A DNA stretch of 64,000 nt from contig JAACJK010000227.1 of the NCBI GenBank assembly GCA_013368325.1, positions 248,001 through 312,000 on the forward strand, in the 5' to 3' direction. Made by a program: the position numbers and the translations under genes. The notes under the pieces were generated by a model. That model was not told the DNA's origin. It searched no databases and worked only from the letters and a program-made list of their open reading frames with translations. The stretch comes from Ephemerocybe angulata (lineage: Eukaryota; Basidiomycota; Agaricomycetes; Agaricales; Psathyrellaceae). Below are positions 3,257-41,446 of the stretch, piece after piece. Numbering within the stretch: the stretch's first letter is position 1; each line of letters begins with the position of its first letter.

Positions 3257-6200
3257 TCAATAGCCGAAGTGAACATATGGAATCCAAGTGAGTAGGGATT
3301 GGTCTGAATTGTCGTCGAGTCGGAGTCGCAGCTGCTTCATTGCGTGATGAAGGGCGTGAGCAGAGAAGCGACCATCTAGTCCAGCCTCTCTAGTGAGACC
3401 TCGATGGTCTAGCAGATACTGGTAGAAGTCGGTCGCTACAGCTGGTGCGTCTCGATCCCCGATCGACCACATCGTAGCCACGACCCTCTGATATCCGGCA
3501 GCAAGCATCCCAGCAGCGAGATGAACAGCTTCGTCCGGAAGCACGTCTACACCGGTGCTCGTCTGGCAGGCCGAGAGGAATGCGAGGTCGGCATTCTTGA
3601 GACTCCGCTGGACGATGGTACCCAGCTCCAGAGATCCGTCGTGGAAAAGGAAGCGGCTCTTGAGAGGATCCTCCGCACTTTGGTAGCCGTGACACGCAAG
3701 ATGAACGATACTATACTTCTCCATAATGTCGAGACACCCAACAGCTGTAATGGCGCCCCCTTCAAACTTCTCCGCCCTCACTCCAGCCGCAGTGACCACC
3801 TCGTAGATAGACCGAACCTCTTTCGTGGTTCCTGGTATGGAAGCCGCACCATCGACGTTTGGCTGGCTGGTCATGAATAGGCCAGTCATTTCCTTATTAA
3901 TAGACTGCCCTTCCTTGACTCGATCGGCCAGTGCTGCGACGGTTGGAATATAGGACGATATGGCGTAGTCCATAAGCCTCTTGGAACCCGTCTTCCCATA
4001 TATTCCAGCGGCATGGATGGGAAGGAAGGACAATGGCCCGGTAGGGCACCACCAGATGCGCGGCAATGTTGTTTCCGATGATTGGCTGTTGTTCTGAGAC
4101 ATAGAATCAGTAGTCTGTAATATACTTTATGCTTGATGGACTCACCAACAGCCCCAGCCTTTGGAGGATCGGGTGCACTATTTTTTCCCATATGCCACGC
4201 AGAATAGTTCGAATTACAGTCTCACCGTTCTTCGAGGGAACCGGCCTGACGCCTCTCCCAACAGTTACTTCCTCTGGGGCTCCCATAATTAATTCTCCTC
4301 TATATCGGGGATTGACATGTCGCAGTTGGGCGGTTAGGGCTTCCCGGTACTGGGTGCACAATTCAAGGGAAAAGTCGGGAAGGGGGATGTGGAGAGGTTG
4401 ATCCTGTCCAGCCACCAGCGCGATCGCGTCGCACCGACGCGTATCGACATTGATAACGACGACCGGACCTGATTCAGGCAGGTGTTGAGCGAGTGTAGTC
4501 CAGGGGACTGGTTTGAGGAATGACTCGAACCCAGGAATAGCCCGGGCCTCTTCCAGGAGCTTCTCCCACTGCCTGGCAAGGTTCAAGTTATCACGAGCTT
4601 GCTCGGCCAAGGAGGTCTTTTTCGATGGCGACATATCGGTCCCCGAGGGTCTCGTAGAAGAACCAGCCGCTTCGAGTCGCTTCGAAACCTGCATGATACT
4701 GGCGGCAAGGCGATTGTTACAGGACCGTAGATTGTCCAGGGGTGTCCGCAGATTGTTGAGCTGGCCCCATACAAGACAGCGACCTTGTTCAAGCCACTCT
4801 AATGCTTTGTCGACTCGGTCCAGTGCTAATGCGGCAGAAGCCGCTTGAAGCGTTATACCAGAGCTATTCTGAAGCTGGGCGTAACGGTTCTGGAGCGTTT
4901 GCTCGAGGCTTGCAGTCAATGTGATCAAGTAAATGGCTGTATCGAAAGCCGCGAGTATGGTTGGTGACGGGGGATAGGAATGGTTCAGCAATCGAGTCCA
5001 ATCTCTCGCTCCCCTAAGCTTCACATGTGGGGAGCCGGTTGGGTAGAGTGCGGATAACTGGTGGTTGGAAATTGCTTCAGTGAGGTCATTTCGATCTCCA
5101 GTGCGGTGGAAGAGCGACTCGAGGTAAGAACCGAGATTAGTGAGCCGGCTAGGCATACTCGCATCTCCGTCAGGGGTGAGCTCCACTGCTTTCCGTTGTT
5201 TTGAAATGGCCTCAGTGATGTTGCCCAGATCTTCAGTACGCTGGAAAAGCGAGTTTAGGGAAAAGCTGAGGTTGCCGAGCCGGCTCGCCATACTGGCATG
5301 TCCTGGAGCGGTGAGCTCAACGACTTTCCGTTGTATCGAAATAGCTTCAGTGAGATCGTAGAGGTCCCCAGTGCGCTGGGAGAGCGACTCGAGGGAATAG
5401 CCGAGGTTGTTGAGGTAGCGGGGCATATTCGCATGTCCCTCAGGAGTGATTTCCACCGCTTTACGCTGCATGGAAACAGCCTCAGTGAGTGTGGGCAGAT
5501 CTCCGGTGCGATGGAAGAGCAACTCGAGGGAATAACCGAGGTTGGAAAGCCATAGAGGCATACTCGCATGCCCCTCAGGAGTGAGCTCCACTGCTTTCCG
5601 TTTTATCGAGATGGTCTCAATGAGGTCGTTCAGATCTCCAGTGCGTTCGAAGAGCGACTCTAGTGAGGAGCCGAGGCTATTGAGCCGTATAGGCATATTC
5701 TCATGTCCGTCGGGAGTGAGCTCCACTGCTTTCCGTTGTTTCGAAATGGCCTCAGTGAGGTCGTGCAGATCACCAGTGTGCTGGAAGAGCGACTCGAGGG
5801 ACAAGCCGAGGTTGCTCAGATGTCTCGCCATATCTGAATGTCCTTCAGCAGTGAGCTCCACCGCTTTCTGCTTCGTTGAAATGGCTTCATTGAGGTCGCG
5901 CAGATTCCCAGAGCGCTGGAAGAGCGAGTCGAGGGAACATCCGAGGTTATTGAGCCATATGGGCAGATCCCCATGTCCGTCAAAAGTGATCTCCACTGCT
6001 TTTCGTTGTTTCGAAATGGCCTCAGTGAGGTTGTTCAGGTCTCCAGTGCACTGGAAGAGCGACTCAAGGGAGGACCCGAGATTGTTTAGTCGTATTGGCA
6101 TATCGGAATGTCCGTCAGGGGTGAGTTCAACTGCTTTCCGTTGTTTTGAAATGGCCTCGGTGATGTCGTGTAGGTCTCCAGTGCGCCGGAAGAGCGATTC

Positions 6201-7188
6201 GAGGGAAGAGCCGAGGTTGTTGAGCCGGGTCGCCGTATCTGCATGTCCGTCAGGGGTGACCTCCACCGCTTTCCGTAGGGCCGAAATAGCCTCGGAGAGG
6301 TCGTTCAGATCTCCAGTACATTGGGAAAGTAACTGGAGGTAAGATCCGAGGTTGCTGAGCCGGGTCGCCATACTTGTATGTCCTTCAGCAGTGAGCTCCA
6401 CCGCTTTCCGTTGTATCGAAATGGCCTTAGTGATGTCTTGCAGATCCCCAGTGTGCTCGAAGAGCGACACGAGGTAAGATCCGAGGTTGTTTAGCTGGGT
6501 TGCCATACTGGCATGTCCGTCAGGAGTGAGGTCGACGGCTTTCCGTTTTAGTGAAATGGCCTGTGTGAGGTCGTGGAGGTCCCCAGTGGATTGGAAGAGC
6601 AACACGAGGTAAGATACGAGGATGTTGAGCCGGGTCGCCATCCTAGCATGTCCTTCAGGAGTGAGTTCTACTGCTTTCCGTTGTTTCGAAATGGCCTCCG
6701 TGAGGTCGCTCAGATCCCCAGTGCGCTGGAAGAGCGACTTGAGGGAACCGCTGAGGTTATTGAGCAACATAGGCATGTCTTCATCTCCGTCAGAACTGAG
6801 CTCCACTGCCTTATGCTGCACAGAAATGGCCTCGACGAGGTCGCGCAGATCCCCACTGTCATCGAAGCGCGACTCGAGTGAATCTCCGAGGTCTCTGAGC
6901 CGGCTAGCCATACTCTCATGCCCCTCAGGAGTGATTTCTAACGCTTTCCGAAGCCTTGATATCGACTTCGTGATGTCACCGAGGTCGCCTGTTCGTTGGA
7001 ACTTGGCGTACAACGCGGTCCCGTCTTAATTAAATATATTTTAGCTCAGCCATCGCCATCTTTTTATCAGTAGGAACATTCCTTACCCCTGTTTAGCCTT
7101 CTGGCCCTTGTCCTGTGTCACCTCAAGGTTAGTATCAATTTACAAGCAGATCCATCGATCTGACTCGAACGTACTTTCTCTTCGTCAT
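3257..7188 (-). CDS. TPR-repeat CHAT-domain (caspase-like) protein
   Basis: Predicted 1251-residue protein from four exons: 7175-7188, 7087-7112, 4146-7024 and 3257-4093. All phases match, and a perfect TACTAAC branch point precedes the 26-nt second exon. The long exon encodes 15 degenerate repeats of 45 residues with the core RTGDLxDLTEAIS and xxAVELTPDGH, read as TPR-like helical hairpins. A linker and a C-terminal CHAT domain follow. CHAT domains are caspase/separase-like peptidases, and the expected dyad is present: His in HLACHG (about 3690) and Cys in LSACQTSTG (about 3565), then the usual HLAAGML and VVATMWSIGD motifs. Known TPR-CHAT proteins act as proteases, for example in type III CRISPR systems, and the fungal homologues are widely expanded and thought to serve recognition or cell death. 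No signal peptide, so probably cytosolic. The tiny first exon is the least certain part. Confidence 0.85.
5050..7012 (-). repeat. 15 tandem 135-bp coding repeats (TPR units)
   Basis: The CHAT gene contains 15 units of 135 bp (45 codons), visible as recurring ctccagtgcgctggaagagc-like blocks on the plus strand. Units differ by scattered substitutions but keep frame and length. One unit lacks the TGDL core (GNL) and another has EDL. Such an array can gain or lose units by unequal exchange without breaking the frame. Confidence 0.9.
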
Positions 7189-8873
7189 TTCCTAATTGTT
7201 TCAACGCAGTGGGACGTAGGAGATGATTTCGAAGGAGAGAATGGATGCAAAGAGAACTTGGCTGAAGCCTCACCTTATATTGTTGCGCACATCTAAAAGT
7301 CTTTGTCTATGGTCTGCCCGAACACCGCCGCAAAGCAGTGCTGGTGCGATTTCCCATGCACAGCGACATTATGTCAATCCCACCTCTAATACCGGAGGGC
7401 TTCGTACAGCAGTGCATCATGCATGTGCTGTGCATCATCTGCTGAAGAACACAGCGCGAAAATCCCTCAAACGACGGGAGTATGTATCGTTCCAGCACCT
7501 CTTGGGGCTGTCCATATCCGCGATGGATATAGCTGATGCTGTATCGTGTTGAGACTAGGTGAAATGAGACGCCGATGAGCACGTTCCAAGTAAGCGATCA
7601 TTCAACCTGTGCGGCATCGCACATATCAGGATATCCTTAATCGAGTACGACCTGTAACTAGAAAGTCGGTCTACTTAGAAGCCAAACGCATCGTGTTGAC
7701 ATATACGCGCGACTATGTCTCGCTATGCCCATTCAATTCACTGCCGAGCTCCCGACGCTGACCGCCCTCATCGAGGTGCGCGCCTATTTGGACAGTCCGC
7801 GATCATGAAACGGGAATCCGTAGGCGACTACGCACAAGATGAGGACGTGAGGTGATGCCCCGGGCGAGCGATCAACGAACACAAGTCTTGCGTTGAGCGA
7901 GTCTCCATGCTTTGCCAGGTTGTGACGATTCAGAAGTTTTGAGGGATAAAAGTCCACATAGAACGTAATCACGTTCCATCCTAAAGAAAGTACATACATT
8001 GAGGCATACGCGATGCGAACACACGACATCCTCGTAGGTTTGCCGGGGCCCTGCAGAACAAGGCAAGACCATCGTCGAACCGCAAACCACACTCGCCCCA
8101 CGTTCGGCTCAGGCTTCGCGCTCCGCTCGCCATGCGAGTAAAATAGATAGGGCGTACAGGGATCGACGATGGTGGGAGGGGGTCCGAGGTGTATGGACTC
8201 CGGGAAGTATCGGCGAAGAAGAGGGCGAAGGAAATCAGGATAGCTGAATAGAAGAACGACTAGTACTACTCACATTCATTGACGCTACCATTAACGCGAG
8301 CGGTATTTCACGGCGCTCTATTCCGTGCTCCCAGCTGCCCCTGACATACCAGCTATGGGCTCCGAATGCATGGCGTTACCGATCTACATTGGAGATATCG
8401 TCGATAAGCCCCTAGGGATCGGAGGGGATAGCCAAGGTCAGACGATGCACGAGGCGCAGTAAGTCGTATTGGCGATAGAGGCCGGAGAAGACCTAAGAGG
8501 AGAACGAAAGCTGATAAATTGAGCAGGACCACCCAGGCCGCCACCGTGCCGAACGAAGAGGCCGACACAGCTCGAATCGTCGACGTCGCCAGCCATTCGT
8601 AAGACCTAGACCCAAAACACAAGCCACATTCTAGAACGGAACCCAGCCTGGCAGACACCGCATCGACAATTATACATTACCGCAACACTATACACCTCCC
8701 CTCCCAATACCCTCCCTCCTTCCACTTCCTCCCAATAGCCACTTCACCTCCTCCCCTACCTAAGTACACCCACTTCCTCCCGTCTCGCACAAATCTCCCA
8801 TAGATCTCCCGTCTCCCATAATCCCCTCATAGATCTCCCATAATCCCCGGCTCCCTCTCCTCACCCTCTCTAC
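7189..8873. other. Intergenic region, nothing recognised
   Basis: Frames here are short, on both strands, and have no domain resemblance. The segment 8690-8870 is strongly C/T-rich with repeated CTCCCATA and ATCTCCC words, just downstream of the decayed carbonic anhydrase copy. I see no gene. Confidence 0.4.
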
Positions 8874-11241
8874 CTACGCCCCCCGCATAGCAGGAAACCC
8901 CTGCACCGCGCCCGGCGGCGGGACCCACCCAGGCGGCCCCGCGCTCACGCCCAAATCACTCACAACCCCCGTCTCGAGGTCGTACACCCAGCCGTGCACG
9001 TACACGGGGTTCAGAGGCTCGTCGGTGTGGAGGGCTTTGGTGTAGGCTTCGTGGTGCTAGGATAGACAGGAGGAATGAGCATTTCGTTTTGTGGATGCAA
9101 TGTAGAGAGAGTAGGGAGCTAGTGAATGCAGGAAGGAAGAAGGGGAGAGGTGAAGAAAGGATGGTGCGCAGGACAAGCGTGCGCGGACACTTTGGAAAAT
9201 GGGCAAGATACGGGTAACATAGACACCACGCGAGTCCCACACCATCGAACGCATAACCCGATCGCTTTCCAACAAAAAAGTCAAACGCAGGAGTCCTCAT
9301 GCCCGAGACGATATCATCGGCATCCTGGGCATGCAACGCAAAGGCCAGAACGAACGAACACAGAAATAAACGAAAGGGAGAGGAAGAACGAACGAACGGA
9401 TTGACGAAGGAACAGCTTAACTAACGCGCAGGGGAGAAGACGAACGCGACGAAGCCAAAAGCCCCAAATCGAAATCGACACACGAAAGCGCACACGGACA
9501 ACATCGCACAGGCGACGAGATCACCCTAACAAAACGCGAACGGGAGATAGTAGCCGCAGCAGAGGAGGCTCCATATGCAGCATGCCAACCGCAGCACAAA
9601 ACCAAAGAAAATCGGAACGAACGAACGGGACGAACGAACGAACGGATAAAGTAAAGTGTCAAACGCACACTCAAACCACAGAAACTAGAAAGGGACCCAC
9701 CAAACCGCATCCACAGCGGCGGAAACTCCATGGCTGAGCGGAATGGATGAAGTGTTGGGAGCTAGGAAATGAGAGAGAGAAACGTCGCGCAAAAGAAGTT
9801 CCAGAGAAGTGGACTCGCTCGTCTCTGTCGTCGAAGCAGCAGCAGTACTCACTTACTTCCGCTGCGCACGCGAAAACGAATAGATAAAGTAAAGAGCTCG
9901 CCAAACGCAGGCATTGGCTGTGAACCATAGCAGCAACAAGCAAAAATGATGCACGAGAGGAATCCAATAAAACATAACCCTCAACATCCCAAACGATCGC
10001 GCTTGAACCCAAGAATCCGAGGAACGACAACCCAAAATCGCTCCCGCACCCCAACCAAAAACGCGAGAAAAGAATAAACCCCACACCCAAAACGACAAAT
10101 CGACCCAACCAACGACCCACCGAACGAACGGCCCAACCAACGACCCAACCAACAAACGAAGGAACAATGAGAAGAAGAAGAAGAAAGCAACTCACCTCCC
10201 TTATAACCCGACTCCTCCCAAGCCTCCACACATTCGCCTTCACATTCTCCTCCACAAGCGCCCTAAATGCGCGTTCATGCAGTTTTACCTCCCCAACCCT
10301 GCTCTCCCTCTCCACCTCCCGCACACCCGCATCGTCGCCGCCGCCCATCATGATCTGCTCTACGCGCCCCCAAGTCCATTCCGGCGTAAAGGTAGGTGTA
10401 GATGTAGAGGTACCGGTGGAGATACCGGTGGAGGTGGAGGTAGAGGTAGAGGTAGGGACAGAGGAAGAGGGAGAGGGAGAAGAGAGAAGCCGCTGCACAC
10501 GCTCACGGTGCTCGCGGATCTCCGGCCGGCCGCTCGTTTCGTAGATCTTGTGGATGGAGAGGATCCAACGTTGCACTGCGAGGTCCGCGGGGGTCTCTTC
10601 CGGCGCCTCGGGCCTTTCTTCACTTGAGGAAGACGCCGAGGACGAAAGACCGGAGGAGGACGACGTCGAGGAAGATGTCGAAAAAGAGGAAGAGGAAGAG
10701 GAAGAGGGGTGAGGGGAAAAAATGGGGACGAGGGAAGAGAGGGAAGGGTGTTATGCCGAGCCAGTGTTCCGCGTATCCTTCAGGGAGGAGCGCCATGCTC
10801 GCTGCGACGCCGCTGCAGCCGTAGTGGCCCATTATGACGACGTGCTTGAATTTGAGGGTTCCGACTGCGTACGTTAGGACTGTGTTGCTACAAAAGGACA
10901 TCAGTACATCCCACGTCGACCACCAACTACCAAGAAAACGAGCGAATGAATGGTGAGAAGAAGGAAGGACGACGACTTACGAACTAACATCCCCCTCCTC
11001 ATATATATTCGCAATATTCCAGGTACCCTACTATCGCTATAATCGACGATCATGAATGGCGCGTGCTGTCCCCTCAGCGCCATTCCCTCTAGCAAGCCAG
11101 GGCTATCCTGCGGCATGCGCGCGCGGTAGGAGACCTTCTCCAGGTAGACTTGTTCGACTTCTTGGAACTTGCCAAGTAAGGAGATACGCCAGAGATGGTC
11201 GCGCTGTGGAGCAGCGGTTTGAAGCGCGCGCGGAGGACATT
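8874..11241 (-). pseudogene. Decayed beta-carbonic anhydrase, copy A
   Basis: Closest to the intact copy at 19312-21962 and aligned to it exon by exon. Exon 3 (8874-9056) is full length and open. Exon 2 (10196-10887) keeps the HYGC zinc-ligand motif but has lost one G in the GGG after the TGGCTC block, so it shifts into a stop after a Phe/Leu-rich tail. Exon 1 starts near 11241 and lacks most of the N-terminal transit and linker region. Its zinc-ligand Cys is Tyr (VDYSDSR), and about 50 nt that encode the segment after DSRV are missing. Splice sites flanking the exons are still good (GTAAGT, CTATCCTAG). The large second intron (9057-10195) is retained. It is almost certainly inactive as an enzyme; partial transcription is possible. 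Confidence 0.85.
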
Positions 11242-12569: not shown

Positions 12570-13569
12570 AAGCGTCGGCTCTTATACTTACCTCTCGTTC
12601 TGCTTTTTCTTCCAATCCCCACATTCGATGCTTTACCTTTGCGTCTCTTCGAGCTTCCTTTATTCTTCCTTCGTCGAATTATCCCTTGCTTCAACTTGTT
12701 CATTCGTTCGTTCGTGATGGTCGCTTTTGAGTGCTCGTACGTCCGTACGTCCCGTCGTTTGTTCGCCCCTTCCGCTCGCTTCTCGATGTTCGTCGAGCCC
12801 ACACTTCTTTGATGTCGTTCAGCCGTTTTCTTTCAAACCGTATATGCTCGACCTTCTGTTCTGGATTCAGCGCTTCCTTTCAATTCTACTTATTTCGTGA
12901 CCACTAACCGCTAGTTTATCTACGTACGATTCGCCGTCCGTCCGAGTAATCGCTCGTTCGGCAATTCACGCGTAATATAAGTAGACAGACAGATTCCGTG
13001 TTTAGTGGGTGGTTGAGGTCGCCAACCCGAATATTCCTTGACTCGGGGGTTAGCGCATAGACAGACGGAAAGCCACCATGTTTCGGCGGGTGTCGAGATG
13101 CAAGACGCAACCTCGCGGTCCTTGTGTGACTGGATGGTTGTGCGAACCGTGTGCTTCTTAAGGTCGTACCTTGGCCTTAGCGCTCACGCTCGGCTGGACT
13201 GGCTCCTGTGTGTCCGAGACTTGGTATTCATCGCGAAAGGCTGGCGACGGGCGTACCCGTTTTCGCTCTTGTCTTCCTCGTTCGTCTCATCGGCACATTT
13301 TATCAAACAGAATATAATACATTTCCAGGGTACACAGAACAACACACGAGAGAACACAGAGGAGTGAGGAAGATGGCGTTTGGGGGACATATATAGAAAA
13401 GGAAACCCTGGGTCATATATTAGTAGATCACCTCAGAAGAGGAGGAAATGCGCACATGTCGTGGGGACATGCGAGTCGTATGGCTCAAGGCCGGCGGAAC
13501 TCCTAGTCGGCGAGTTCTTCGACTGTGTGGAAATTCATGAGTTGTGAACGCGGGATACATGTAATGAAC
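12570..13569. other. CA copy B intron remnant and intergenic DNA
   Basis: 12570-12830 resembles the long CA intron, with TTCG/CGTT-rich words such as GTTCGTTCGTTCG. From about 12900 to 13569 I see no coding support on either strand and no sign of the missing CA exon 3. Confidence 0.5.
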
Positions 13570-15320
13570 CTACATCTGGACTCGGATTGGGCTTGTTCCC
13601 GGATCCTTTCCTAGAGTGCAAGGAGAAGACCAGAGTGTGAGTTATCTGGTTTCTGGGTGCTGTGCTGGAGGTATTCGAATCGAAACAGGACCTACCCACT
13701 GTAAATTGAAAGACCCAGCGCCGTGAGCACCGCACGCTTCATATCGGAGGCGAAAAGGACTTACAGCCTGTAAAATGGGAGACCCCGATCCGTAAGCACC
13801 GCACGCTTTGTATTGGGTGAAACGGGACTTACTTCCTGTAAATTGAGTGGCTCCGATCCGTGAGCACCACACGCTTCGTATTCGGGGCGAAACAGGACTT
13901 ACACGCTGTAAAATGAGAGGCCCCAATCCATGAGCACCACACGCTTTGTATCGGGGGAGAAAGAGGACTTACTTCCTGCAAATTGAGAGGCCCCGATCCG
14001 TGAGCACCACACGCCTTGTCTGGGGCGCAATGAGAGACTTACAAGCTGTAAATTGAGAGGCCACGATCCCTGAGCACCGCACTCGTATCAGGGGCGGAAC
14101 GGACTTACGGCCTGTAAATTGAGAGGTCCCGATTCGTGAGCACCGCACGCTTCGTATGAGGGGCGAAACAGGACTTACTTCCTGTTGAGAGGCCCCGATT
14201 TGTGAGCACCACACGCTTTGTATCCAGGGCGAGACGGGACTTACCATCTGTAAATTGAGAGGCCCCGATCTGTGAGCACCACACGCTTTGTATCGGAGGC
14301 GAAATGGGACTTACAAACTATAAATTGAGAGGCCCCGATCTGTGAGCACCACACGCTTCGTATGCAGCCCGAAATGACATATCGAGGTGAGGTGGAGATA
14401 TGTTAACTCACCGTAGTAACGGGCTGCTTTCGCATATGGCGAAATTGCAAAACCTCCTCCGGCTCTTCTACCACGACGGTGCCCCCACGCCTTGCTTTGG
14501 GCTTTTCTGGAAGAATATAACGAGTTGCACACCGCCGGCTGCTTCGACGTCAGGACATTGGAGACTTTCATGTAGCTCCAGGGAGAAAGGACCCACCACA
14601 CATGCCACCCCTGGTCTACATATGTCCCAAGCTTAGTCCTCCCACATTTTGGGCACATTCTATCCAGTTCCTCATCCAATTTTTGTTCGATTAGCATAGT
14701 CATCACCAGCTGCTCACGTTCGTCCCTAATCTTAACCCAATCCTCGGCACTGACCACCAATCCATCGTCTGATCCTTCTGCCCGTCCTATGCAATACCGC
14801 CCCTGCGCGACACTCTCCTCTCCCAATTTTCCCTTGAAATGGTTGACTAACAACCGTTTCAACTGCTGTTTAACCAAATACCATCGATCGATGAGCAAAT
14901 CAGATATGAACGCCATTCCACATTACCTTGTAGGTCGGTACAAAGCTCCATGGGATAGTCAAGGTCTCTCCCAACGCATCGGTGAGGACCAACGCATTCT
15001 CATTGCTGTGACGAACGATCGCTGGAATGCTTCTTCGTATTTCAGCGGCGATAACTCTTCGCACTGGTCCAAATGAGTGAGTTCTTCATGGCAAAAAAGC
15101 ATGGCGGCGTACATTCCTCGTAGTCAATTCCGTGTTTGATCATGTTCCCCTGGACGGTGGTAATCGACAGTGAGCCGAACGAGTTGTTATGGCTATTGCA
15201 GAGGATTTGATGCGCCCGCTGGGTGACGATTCGTGTTGACTCTGGGCGTGGAGATCTCGTGGGAGAAGTGAGAGCGTCGAAACGTCGATTTTTAGGTGCC
15301 TTCCGAAGTGACTTAGGCAC
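13570..15320 (-). CDS. Ubiquitin-like (ULD-type) domain protein with intron array
   Basis: Supported exons: up to 15113 (start upstream not resolved), 14927-15063 and 14412-14865, joined in phase (EE-L-RRV; PTYK-QLKRL). The text NENALVLTDALGETLTIPW, then LKRLLVNHFKGKLGE, then GRYCIGRAEG and EDWVKIRDEREQLVMTM, resembles the ubiquitin-like ULD_2 region found in many Agaricomycete proteins of unknown role. A CPKCG motif follows the domain. The exon ends at a perfect donor (G|GTGAGT, 14411). Downstream lies a tandem array of intron-like units, listed separately, and then an acceptor at 13611 opening a short tail that stops at 13570 if the whole array is removed. Function unknown; the domain suggests protein-protein contact. 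The N-terminus and the splicing of the array are uncertain. Confidence 0.6.
13690..14412 (-). repeat. Tandem intron-like minisatellite with 3-nt micro-exons
   Basis: About ten direct repeats of 66-71 bp. On the minus strand, the strand of the host gene, each unit starts with a consensus donor (GTAAGTCC, once GTAGGTCC) and ends with an acceptor (TTTACAG, TTTGCAG, TTATAG or AACAG). Exactly three bases separate each acceptor from the next donor. Triplets in transcript order: TTT 14315-14317, ATG 14245-14247, GAA 14179-14181, GCC 14109-14111, CTT 14043-14045, GAA 13973-13975, CGT 13903-13905, GAA 13833-13835, GCT 13765-13767, TGG 13696-13698. Unit introns would be 63-67 nt, a normal size for this genome. 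Interiors are alike (GCGTGTGGTGCTCAC, GATCGGGGCCTC). The triplets differ while the splice signals are kept. Confidence 0.9.
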
Positions 15321-19170: not shown

Positions 19171-19311
19171 CCGAACCTCCAAGAATCCCTCAACAACCAA
19201 GCACACATTCATAAACCACACTTACATAGATTTTCTACTTACATCATCCCTTCACCCTTTCTCCCATAAATCTCCGAGCTCGCCCTCATCAACGCCATTC
19301 GCCTCTTCTAC

Positions 19312-21962
19312 CTACGCCCCCCGCATAGCAGGAAACCCCTGCACCCCGCCCGGCGGCGGCACCCATCCCGGCGGCCCCGCACTCACGCCCAAATCACTCA
19401 CAACCCCCGTCTCGAGGTCGTACACCCACCCGTGCACGTACACGGGGTGCAGCGGCTCCGAAGTGGAGAGGGCTTTGGCGTAGGCTTCGTGGTGCTGGAA
19501 TAGAAGAGAAGTGTGAGTTGGGGAGTTCGTGGATGGAAGCGGACGAAGGGAAGAAAGGGAGAAAGGAAGAAAGGAAGGAAGAAAGGAAGAGAAGGTGGGT
19601 TCGCAGACGCCTGGAAGGACGCCACGCAGGGCCGGCAACAACGTCCCCGTTCGACCGTATCCCGTCGAACGCATCCAACCCGAGCACCACGTGTGCCATG
19701 CGCTACGCTTCAAACCCATCGACCCATCACTCGATGCCTTCGCATTCGAAGTTTAAGATCGATCGTCATGCCAGACAGACAGGCACAGACACGACTGTGC
19801 ACGCAACGCGAGAGCCAGAACGAATGAACAAAGAAATGAACGAAAGGACGAATGAACGAACGGCTTGATGAATTAACAGCTAAACGAACGAGCGGTTCAG
19901 AAGACGAACAAGCCGAAACCAAAAAAAAAGCCCAAGACCAAACCCCAGCAGTAAAAGCACGCAGACAATATCGCACAGGCGATAACCACGAAGACAGTAC
20001 GCGAAAGTAAAGCGATAGCGGTAGGAGAGCAAAACGAAGCACACACTCCCCCCCCACGAAGCCAGGAGCAAACAACGAACGAACGAATCACCAAACAGTT
20101 CGCGAAACGCGACCTCAAACCGCACGCCCCAGGAAGGAATCTACCGCACTCCATCCACGGACGGGAGGCGAACGACCTAGAGCAGGGGAGAATGAAGAAA
20201 AGGGTGGGAGAGAGAGGAACGACAAGCACAAGCAGAACCAAAAACGTGAACTCCTTCGATGGCAGATCCAAACGCGAAGAGATGGACACGAATCTGAGCA
20301 CAGAGCGCCAAAAAGCAAAGCCGATCTATGAAGGTCACCCAATAACCTATAGCCGCCGAAACGCAAGAACGATCGCGCGAGGGCGCGACAGCACGAAGAA
20401 GAACGCACAGACGAACCCACACCCCGACCGAAAACTCGGGAAAAGAAGACCCGAGGGAAAGGAAGGAACGAAACCCAACACCCAAAACGACAAACCGACC
20501 GGACCAACCACCCAACCAAAGACCCAACGAACAAACGACCCAACCACCCAACCAACAACCCAACCAACAACCAAACGAATGATCGAAACTAGAACAATAG
20601 AGAACGAGAAAAAAGAAAGCGACTCACCTCCCTTATAACCCGACTCCTCCCAAGCCTCCACACATTCGCCTTCACATTCTCCTCCACAAGCGCCCTAAAC
20701 GCGCCATCATGCAACTTCACCTCTCCAATCTCTCCCTCCCCAGTCGCTGCATCATTCAGCTTCACCTCTCCAATCTCTCCCTCCCCAGTCCCTTCAGTCT
20801 TTTCAGCACCCATAAGAACGCGCGCTACGCGTTCCCTAGTCCATTCCGGAGTACCAGTGGAAGAAGAGGAAGAAGAGATAAGACGCTGCACACGCTCCCG
20901 GTGCTCGCGGATCTCCGGCCGGCCGCTCGTTTCGTAGATCTTGCGGATGGGGAGGATCCAGCGCTGCACTGCGAGGTCCGCGGGGGTCTCTTCCTGCGCC
21001 GAAGGCGTCGATCCTGAGGTCGTCGAAGACGAGCTCGGGGAAGCCGAAGTCGAGGGAGGCGCCGAGGAAGAAGATCCAGAGGAGGAAGGGGAAGACAAGG
21101 TGGAATGGGAAGAAGAGGAAGGATGGGAAGAGAGTGGGGACGAGGGAAGAGAGGGAAGGGTGGTATGCCCGAGCCAGCGCTCGGCGTAGCCTTCAGGGAG
21201 AGGGGCCATGCTCGCTGCGACGCCGCCGCAGCCGTAGTGGCCCATTATAACGACGTGTTTGACGTTGAGGGTTTTGACGGCGTAGGTTAGGACTGCGTTG
21301 CTAGATTAGGTGTTAGTATCATCCTCACACCAACCACACCAAGACCACCCAAGAAAACGAACGAACGAACGAACGAATCAACAAACGAAAGAAGGAAGGA
21401 CGACTCACGAACTAACATCCCCCTCCTCAAACATATTCGCAATATTCCCCGCCGTAAACATCGTCCCGGGATCCGCATCGAATATCGCGCCCTCATTCAC
21501 CCTACTATCGCTACAATCCACAATCATAAACGGCGGTCTCTGCCCCCGCAAGGCCAATCCCTCCAACAAGCCTGGATTGTCCTGCGACATACGCGCGCGG
21601 TACGATACGTTTCCGAGGTAGAGCTGTTCGATTTCGTGGAATTTGTCTGTTAAGGCGCGTTGGAGCTGCGGGCTGCGGCGGAGGTGCCAGTAGTTTGCGT
21701 CGGCGTTGAAGGAGGGCGCGTGGGGGTGGGGGCAGCAGGAAGATGGCACCCTGGGGCTAGCAGTAGAGGTGGGGGAGGGAGAGGGGGAGGGGAAGAGCTC
21801 GGACCATGCCTCGCGCCATGTGAGGGGCAGGGAGGCGCTCGCTGCAGTGCTATGCGCGCGCTTAGTGTAAGCGCGCGGTGCGAGGGGCGCTTTGAAGACG
21901 AGTTTGGCGGTGGAGATGGGCGCGCTGTAGAGCGAGGGGTTGAAGAGGGCGCGGAGGGGCAT
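19312..21962 (-). CDS. Beta-carbonic anhydrase, intact copy C
   Basis: Three exons, 21409-21962, 20628-21300 and 19312-19494, in matching phases, giving 469 residues. Beta-CAs interconvert CO2 and bicarbonate on a zinc bound by Cys, His and Cys. All ligands are visible: the IVDCSDSR motif (Cys, with the Asp-Arg dyad) in exon 1 and GHYGCGGV (His and Cys) in exon 2. The start at 21962 is chosen because copies B and D share it (MPLRxLFNPSLYS). The first about 45 residues are rich in Arg, Ser and Ala with no acids (KRAHSTAA), like a mitochondrial targeting signal. Exon 2 has a long Ser/Pro insert after the zinc site and acidic GEIGEVKL repeats, making the protein about twice the family's usual length. 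Exon 3 supplies the conserved VHGWVYDLETG. It is the only CA here likely to work. Confidence 0.88.
19495..20627 (-). repeat. Very long CA intron rich in CGTT/AACG repeats
   Basis: At 1133 nt this second CA intron is some twenty times the local norm. It is full of 4-bp words (aacg, acga, aacc), for example around 19860-19900 and 20490-20580. The equivalent intron of copy A (9057-10195, 1139 nt) has a similar length and texture; that of copy D (63612-63950) is about 339 nt. Splice sites are normal, so the bulk is internal expansion rather than a mis-called exon. Confidence 0.75.
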
Positions 21963-40695: not shown

Positions 40696-41446
40696 CGGTG
40701 GAGTCCACCCCTGGAACGTTATTCCTCAATCGGTGAGAGGGTTCTGTGATACTGATGAAGTACTTATCTGTTAGGGTGGTAGCCGACCTCGACTTATTAG
40801 GCTCTCAAAGCCCTAATTGTTCCCGGGTCGCGGGTTTTGCTAAAAACAGAATTCCCACGAGTGGTGATTGTGAGCTGGCGCTTAAGGTTTTGAATGGGCG
40901 TCTACTAACTTATTAGAAACCTCGTCGACGTCCTGCGGCGCATTTTCCCCCCACATTGCCGTGACATCATGAGCACGTAGAACGGCTCGTCTGAAGGGCG
41001 GTTTTACAAGTCAATGACATCGCCCGGCACTTCCGAGTCAGAATGGAGGTAGACGTGAGACATCGTTCGCGCGGTGGGGTCCACCCCTGGAACATTATTT
41101 CTCAATCGGTGAGAGGGTTCTGCGATAGCTGATGAAGTACTTATCTGTTAGGGTGGTAGCCAACCTCGACTTATTAGGCTCTCGAAGCCCTAATTGTTCC
41201 CGGGTCGTGGGTTTTGCTAAAACAGAATACCCACGAGTGGCGATTGCGAGCTGGCGCTTAAGGTTTTGACTTGGGCGTCTACTAAATTAGAAATCTCGTC
41301 GACGTCCTGCGGCACATTTCCCCCCCTCATTGCCGTGACTTCATGAGCATGTAAAACGGCTCCTCTGAAGAGCTGTTTTACAAGTCAATGACATCGTCCG
41401 GCACCTCCGAGTCGGAATGGAGGTAGACGTGAGACATCGTTCGCGT
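40696..41446. repeat. Tandem duplication, two units of about 376 bp
   Basis: Unit 1 starts at 40696 and unit 2 at 41072. Shared blocks include ccacccctggaac, tcaatcggtgagagggttct, gatgaagtacttatctgttag, gcccta-attgttcccgggtc, gcgcttaaggttttga, tgccgtgac-tcatgagca and gttttacaagtcaatgacatcg. Each unit holds an imperfect hairpin (acggctc...gagc-gtttta), the same words found in the perfect hairpin at 41478. Confidence 0.85.

Follow-up and report, generated by a model that had tools for sequence, protein, structure and literature searches.

A predicted chain of short introns and one-codon exons in the C-terminal coding region of ULD_2 genes of Ephemerocybe angulata

Introduction

Several described gene families and splicing routes resemble, each in one respect, the locus reported here. 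The exons of schistosome micro-exon genes (MEGs) mostly have lengths that are multiples of 3, and the genes evolve fast. As described for Schistosoma, MEGs consist largely of very short exons of 3–81 bp (PMC10526429). A gene built mostly of very short exons is the feature they share with our locus; they are, however, animal genes for secreted proteins in which varied short exons lie between long introns (up to 5 kbp), whereas the mushroom array, part of a ULD_2 gene of a fungus, consists of tens of exactly one-codon exons with introns of ~66 nt between them. The long introns of MEGs have no counterpart in the array, whose introns measure 63–94 nt. Aphid bicycle genes are described as combining many micro-exons in one uniform phase with rapid evolution and a structure that outlasts sequence; they average ~17 exons, the internal ones almost all in phase 2, and megacycle spreads ~2000 amino acids over >100 micro-exons of roughly 20 codons each (PMC9168663). 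Here the likeness lies in the uniform phase and the fast evolution, but these are animal genes with longer exons in phase 2. Single 3-nt exons exist, e.g., in mouse Ncam (PMC8042270), a 20-nt micro-exon acts as a switch in Xlr2 of Trichoderma virens, and micro-exons have been tested in Schizosaccharomyces pombe (PMC11121469). Unlike those of the mushroom gene, these isolated micro-exons of animals, plants and fungi are single exons that form no arrays.

Repeated introns and stepwise intron removal have also been described. Introner elements are repeated, near-identical introns spread over many genes; they share repetition and near-identity with the introns studied here, but the array matches listed by our searches are restricted to a single site in a single gene family. 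Stwintrons are removed stepwise, and classic recursive splice sites are of zero length or have their exons skipped. In recursive splicing, as described, an intron is taken out in steps, and the junction formed by a step carries a new donor (PMC6224609). In the mushroom array, in contrast to recursive splicing and stwintrons, a step would contribute one codon; in the window array, each acceptor AG is separated from the following donor GT by 3 nt, and AG never directly precedes GT. A full-text search of literature covering the minority of subscription papers and preprints retrieved no described gene with an array of one-codon exons among the titles and abstract starts of the matches listed; within this scope it agrees with the preliminary description of the locus, whose author knew of no such gene.

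Here, we analyze such an array in a window of 64,000 nt (C13:248001-312000) from the 58.7-Mb, 232-contig genome assembly of E. angulata, together with its paralogues in the same genome. Judged from the DNA, the array is very probably a chain of eleven ordinary short spliceosomal introns and ten one-codon exons in the C-terminal coding region of a ULD_2 gene.

Results

Checked letter by letter, the minus strand from 14411 to 13611 alternates eleven introns (63–94 nt) with ten exons of exactly 3 nt (Table 1). The preliminary description had reported a tandem array of intron-like units with 3-nt micro-exons starting at the donor of a real exon at 14411, and all of this, including its list of triplets, holds. 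A unit of intron plus triplet spans 66–70 nt, with the first (94 nt) and the eleventh (85 nt) introns as exceptions, and Tandem Repeats Finder places the array at 13681-14363 with a period of 70, 9.9 copies and a score of 707. The donor octamer GTAAGTCC occurs nine times in the window, eight of them inside the array, against an expectation of 1.48; none of 100 shuffles reached nine. Among the nine of eleven array introns that were scored, a GTRNGT donor, a branch-like CTNAY motif and a CAG end are each present in 9/9, while the remaining two read GTGAGT..TAG and GTAGGT..TAG. By donor, branch-like motif and AG acceptor, the array introns thus fit the sequence criteria of spliceosomal GT-AG introns. 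Each micro-exon has a length of 3n and leaves the frame intact whether it is present or absent, as expected of coding micro-exons (3–30 nt). The units as read-through coding sequence were rejected, as most unit lengths are not multiples of 3 (70, 70, 70 and so on, beside 66 and 69) and stops are present.

Table 1. Predicted features of the window gene (positions within the window)
Feature	Position	Strand	Details and basis
Host coding exon upstream of ULD_2 exons (..QILCNSHNNSFGSLSITTVQGNMIKHGIDYEE)	15113..15263	-	tblastn, P0010 to 15263 and P0005 to 15323; L018 DNA homology from 15246
Host exon B, start of ULD_2	14927..15063	-	tblastn, joined gene, Pfam
Host exon C, rest of ULD_2 and CPKC half of zinc-ribbon-like CPKC..CRRC; ends in phase 2	14597..14865	-	Pfam, paralogue search, joined gene, dN/dS
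Upstream intron	14539..14596	-	58 nt, GTGGGT...GCAG; relatives' joins; removal puts array in phase 0
Host exon D, last long exon before array (..CRRC..VEEPEEVLQFRHMRKQPVTT); ends in phase 0	14412..14538	-	relatives' joins and joined gene
Array intron 1	14318..14411	-	94 nt, GTGAGT...TATAG
Micro-exon 1, TTT (Phe)	14315..14317	-	second parse and joined gene; not in flat-prior parse
Micro-exon 2, ATG (Met)	14245..14247	-	flat-prior parse and joined gene
Micro-exon 3, GAA (Glu)	14179..14181	-	flat-prior parse and joined gene
Micro-exon 4, GCC (Ala)	14109..14111	-	flat-prior parse and joined gene
Micro-exon 5, CTT (Leu)	14043..14045	-	flat-prior parse and joined gene
Micro-exon 6, GAA (Glu)	13973..13975	-	flat-prior parse and joined gene
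Micro-exon 7, CGT (Arg)	13903..13905	-	flat-prior parse and joined gene
Micro-exon 8, GAA (Glu)	13833..13835	-	flat-prior parse and joined gene
Micro-exon 9, GCT (Ala)	13765..13767	-	flat-prior parse and joined gene
Micro-exon 10, TGG (Trp)	13696..13698	-	flat-prior parse and joined gene
Array intron 11	13611..13695	-	85 nt, GTAGGT...CTCTAG
Exon after array (ERIREQAQSESR and first base of Phe)	13574..13610	-	37 nt; joined gene; 37-nt exon also in L017, L018, L020
Last intron	13523..13573	-	51 nt, GTAGGT...CACACAG; inferred from P0002
Last coding exon (rest of Phe, EELAD, stop TAG)	13503..13522	-	joined gene; stop 13505-13503

The joined host protein matches Pfam ULD_2 (PF22893) with 49.4 bits against a cut-off of 24.5 (E 5.3e-13). 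At E up to 0.001 it has 11 homologous proteins; one comes from Coprinellus aureogranulatus and the other ten from E. angulata, of which nine belong to gene set DFP72DRAFT and one to D9611. The intron homologous to 14596-14539 is removed, giving GWxVCRRC, in six of these (P0001-P0004, P0007 and the Coprinellus protein P0009); among the other five, P0005 reads on (GWHVWCVFSP, protein end), P0008 has a different join, and P0006, P0010 and P0011 are without the junction. It was because this intron had been read through that the array was earlier assigned to phase 1. Removing the intron brings the end of the exon that precedes the array into phase 0 in all six joined genes (window, L017, L018, L020, L051, L064), and the frame stays open through the array in each; five reach a stop, and the L017 stretch is cut before one. 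The supposed tail end at 13570 likewise gives way to a further intron at 13573-13523 and a stop at 13505-13503, both inferred from P0002, which ends ..REQARSVSRFEELAD. The full tail of the window gene in phase 0 reads ...RKQPVTT-FMEALEREAW-ERIREQAQSESRFEELAD before the stop, and the product that skips all ten triplets is also in frame. Tryptic peptides would tell these products apart, inclusion giving QPVTTFMEALER and EAWER and full skipping QPVTTER.

Upstream, the 269-nt host exon C has a dN/dS of 0.12–0.16 between the window gene and three paralogues, and of 0.11–0.16 in all six pairs of the four close genes (own Nei-Gojobori script); by this measure, it is under purifying selection. On the 5' side, the coding DNA of the paralogues aligns from 15246 on, no protein match extends beyond 15323, and there is no ATG in the frame before the conserved part, for which reasons the window gene may lack its 5' end or start with a different first exon. 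L017 also gives weaker DNA matches upstream of 15246.

Elsewhere in the window, the minus strand carries at 4107-7025 a 972-codon open frame with ~14 repeats of 45 residues (TGDL.DLTEAIS.QRKAVELTPDGH..), presumably akin to fungal TPR proteins. Near-identical short peptides (..PPHSRKPLH.ARRR..) seen by eye at 8833-9065 and 19270-19503, ~10.4 kb apart, point to a duplicated segment, and at 40696-41445 a 374-bp unit is present twice in tandem, the copies matching at 92%.

Exon spacing was assessed with a parser that used a hand-set generic fungal consensus for donor, branch and acceptor and treated all exon lengths up to 150 nt as equally likely (flat prior). Its input comprised 13 array pieces (16,399 bases) picked by eye and homology, and L019 5481-6589, the ~550-nt insertion of L066 and anything beyond the fetched stretches had been left out before counting. 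In the window array it recovered nine of the ten triplets; it missed TTT because, in place of the TATAG acceptor, it chose a CAG that lies 22 nt before it, which gave a 25-nt exon. Over all pieces it called 192 exons <20 nt, namely 181 of 3 nt, four of 6, four of 9 and three others (2, 2 and 4 nt), i.e., 189/192 with a length of 3, 6 or 9 nt. Twenty shuffles gave 1.25–2.6 exons per length with no peak, and the rest of the window (both strands, 117,000 bases) showed a flat short-exon length distribution. A first parser setting with a higher penalty, under which introns were merged, returned only multiples of 3 among its 66 exons <20 nt (62 of 3, two of 6, two of 9). The three exons of other lengths, one of 4 nt in L017 and one of 2 nt each in L051 and L065, seem by eye to be parser errors, with false acceptors ATTAG/ACAT and CCAG/AT or an intron called within a host exon. 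A learned prior makes them disappear, but because it prefers 3 nt, the spacing test is based on the flat-prior parse. The second parse, with the learned prior, also contains exons of 12, 21, 26, 31, 37 and 87 nt, mostly outside the array ends.

Since the pieces were hand-picked and units are copies of one another, independent evidence comes from how many unlike arrays there are. Mean intron-core identity is 0.70–0.78 within the arrays of the window, L017, L018 and L020. Against the window, intron cores of the C139, C150, C208, C52:24204 and C13:241584 genes reach 0.56–0.59 identity, compared with 0.54 after shuffling (C208 contributing three introns only), and the flat-prior parse finds in these genes 12, 14, 4, 17 and 12 exons of 3 nt, respectively. 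By these measures, the distant paralogues have kept the 3-nt spacing and the splice sites with intron sequence nearly at the shuffled level.

The paralogue search with the 90-aa exon yielded at least 15 loci, and the downstream DNA of all 15, mostly ~1.5 kb, was read by eye. A one-codon-exon array stands at the same place in 11 of them. The other four are three C214 loci, in which the exon continues to a stop, and C104, where homology ends early; in 1,500 bases of each (6,000 in total), the flat-prior parser found eight exons <20 nt and none of 3 nt. The C214 loci (L060, L062, L063), with their unlike tails, are useful to judge array gain and loss. In the second parse, the counts of 3-nt exons are 10 in the window gene, 21 in L017, 10 in L018, 42 + 14 in L019, 27 in L020, 17 in L051, 13 in L058, 4 in L061, 12 in L064, 18 in L065 and 3 + 3 in L066, and the longest unbroken run comprises 27 (flat prior) or 29 consecutive one-codon exons. 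In a tree of the 90-aa exon (midpoint root, 2/12 inner branches starred), array genes fall on both sides of the longest inner branch (support 100/100; 3/4 and 8/11 rows), from which the array would be either old or of multiple origin.

Individual paralogues depart from this layout. The 56 one-codon exons of L019 (2180-7690; C13:338580-344090) lie in two stretches ~1.1 kb apart, with a poly-T run in the gap; many of its donors are of GTCAGT type beside GTAAGT, only 24/44 fit GTRNGT in the first stretch (L019a), and one unit recurs three times at 162-nt steps. On the reverse strand of L066 (the C52:16314 gene), at ~2260-2810, the array is interrupted by a ~550-nt insertion flanked, by eye, by a ~150-nt direct repeat; this gene may be decaying. 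At the 3' end of L058, a 26-nt exon is out of frame.

P0011 (D9611_012609), the one annotated protein of this assembly among the homologues, matches the L018 gene on the contig of the window at 86–97% in four of five pieces; it skips the array and ends within array-intron sequence, so that annotation missed this tail. In the second gene set, P0001 and P0003 appear by eye to include the first micro-exon and then run into the intron.

Genome-wide, the DNA matches listed for two array types used as queries all lie in the host family (16/16 and 6/6), as do 61 of the 64 listed matches to the pattern GTAAGTN{42,72}CAGNNNGTAAGT; the dispersal over many unrelated genes that characterizes introners was not seen among them. 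The backwards control of the pattern gave 132 genome matches against 64, so the match count itself is no evidence and only the clustering in one family counts; the backwards matches are perhaps another repeat family. A satellite outside genes, lacking splice-site conservation, had been named as an outcome that would overturn the reading, and it was rejected: the array matches listed cluster in the host family, and splice sites outlast intron sequence.

The triplets carry several signs of coding. No stop occurs among the 181 first-pass triplets, against 4.8 expected from position-specific base frequencies (P 0.0075); as units are duplicates, triplet counts are not independent, and counting only the 129 distinct array-triplet pairs raises the chance of finding none to 0.03. 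The 194 second-pass triplets are also free of stops. When the short exons of the 13 array pieces are joined, phase 0 contains one stop, the phase of the preliminary description 22 and the other shift three. The single phase-0 stop belongs to a 6-nt exon, TGA GAA, at the far end of L019a, where it follows the residue chain SCTDYRFLEEERERLESEHQAMEHRIEELKHQADARRRRRRKIQLTQ. On a helix-propensity scale, the triplet residues, with an average of 0.483, are more prone to helix than random codons of equal composition (0.658, sd 0.051), and 0/2000 draws were as low. This bias is strong in L019a (0/1000 draws as low), L020 (0/1000) and the window (7/1000); taken per array, it is not significant in L064 (879/1000 as low or lower), L018, L051, L058, L065, L019b or L017. 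Amphipathic moments at 100 degrees are mixed (p 0.052 in L019a, 0.017 in the window tail, 0.58 in L020, 0.25 in L051), and the claim is therefore limited to a helix-prone composition; a coiled coil was dropped as a candidate, the moment being not significant in L020 and L051. In the window, C139, C150 and C13:241584 genes, the last micro-exon is TGG (Trp), and in the first three the exon after it encodes ..ESR(F), despite introns that barely match.

Divergence was compared over the 60 units of the four close arrays (window, L017, L018, L020). Triplet columns differ pairwise at 0.65–0.74, intron columns at 0.18 on average and 0.62 at most, and mean triplet entropy is 1.83 bits, against ≤1.12 for any three adjacent intron columns. 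In 19 pairs with a mean intron divergence of 0.04, the next triplet differs in 0.53 of its bases and the previous one in 0.30. Intron divergence is at most 0.08 in 62 pairs, many of them from L020 and not independent; here the next triplet is identical in 18, synonymous in one and different in meaning in 43. Two ordinary host introns of the same four genes diverge by 0.05–0.37, and measured against them the array introns do not evolve unusually slowly. The simplest reading of the codon diversity would be diversifying selection or codon-targeted mutation, and the data fit both.

Discussion

At the sequence level, the array combines exact 3-nt spacing, phase 0 at both ends, freedom from stops, an architecture common to 11/15 paralogues, some of them with nearly unrelated intron sequence, and a much greater variability of the codons than of the introns between them. 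From this combination we infer that the micro-exons are included in the mRNA. The preliminary description had left the choice between mini-introns, stepwise splicing and one intron of ~800 nt; the spacing, the absence of stops and the paralogues put the chain of mini-introns in the lead and the single intron far below.

A chain of this kind could be spliced as follows. The introns are short enough for intron definition, in which each can be recognised without its exons, and from general knowledge of splicing we expect the spliceosome to remove them singly and in succession; as a 3-nt exon is too small for two complexes at once, removal is probably stepwise. Each step would join one codon to the growing exon, beside a fresh donor. 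The included codons would write a variable and, in several paralogues, helix-prone C-terminal segment (FMEALEREAW in the window gene) that connects two conserved parts, CPKC..CRRC and the SRFEEL end. With less certainty, the array may gain and lose whole units by tandem duplication, and its codons may be kept different by diversifying selection, as for a recognition or partner-binding surface. Variable length and codons beside a conserved host domain suggest that the tail is a binding surface under pressure to change.

Variable inclusion is possible, as any skipped micro-exon leaves the frame intact. In a special form of the mini-intron chain, the codons would be real but alternatively included, giving many tails per gene, and such combinatorial use is a tentative idea that we think more likely wrong than right. 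All triplets being in phase 0, each subset keeps the frame; donors are uniform in the window (9/9 GTRNGT) and mixed in L019a, and a repertoire would suit highly variable codons. On the other hand, near-identical introns offer no obvious means of exon choice, and fungal introns are mostly constitutive. Taken furthest, and equally speculative, each codon of a hypervariable recognition segment would be a cassette exon in a single-residue exon system, the tail being changed in length, register and identity.

That the whole 801 nt from 14411 to 13611 are instead one intron, with the units as an internal satellite bearing decoy or relic splice signals, we consider improbable. Two observations fit one long intron: skipping all ten triplets keeps the reading frame, and annotation of the L018 gene passes over the array. 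Such an intron would, however, leave the spacers free in length and codon. Instead, 189/192 are multiples of 3 and 0/194 are stops, composition is helix-prone overall, TGG is terminal in four paralogues, and the splice signals outlast intron cores that have diverged nearly to the shuffled level. Still less probable is a functionless tandem duplication of introns, in which shared splice sites and the 3-nt spacer result merely from copying. The similar introns of the close C13 arrays and the thrice-repeated L019 unit fit copying well; copies should, however, share triplets as they share introns, yet the triplets are the most variable part, and the layout is kept in the C139, C150, C52 and C208 genes despite hardly matching introns. 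Hardly credible at all is the earlier proposal of a phase-1 switch, by which TGA arises when GA follows a triplet with a final T, and triplet choice sets a short or long protein end: with 14596-14539 as coding sequence the exon does end in phase 1 (ORF 14922-14311), but six of 11 annotated relatives remove this intron, the six joined genes are then in phase 0, where none of the triplets is a stop, and the phase it needs holds 22 stops to 1.

If the chain of mini-introns is spliced as read here, these genes would have an extreme exon-intron structure, with up to 27 (flat prior) or 29 consecutive residues encoded by one exon each, and would offer a direct test of whether, and in which order, the spliceosome can deal repeatedly with exons far below its footprint. 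Gene models can miss such tails. The arrays would also be a route to codon-by-codon diversification of a protein in which the conserved repeats lie in the introns only, the reverse of usual repeat proteins. Should the single-residue exon system prove true, the tail could change over generations, by gain and loss of units and codon diversification, and within one cell, by skipping, with up to 2^10 in-frame tails for the window gene and far more for L019, with its 56 one-codon exons.
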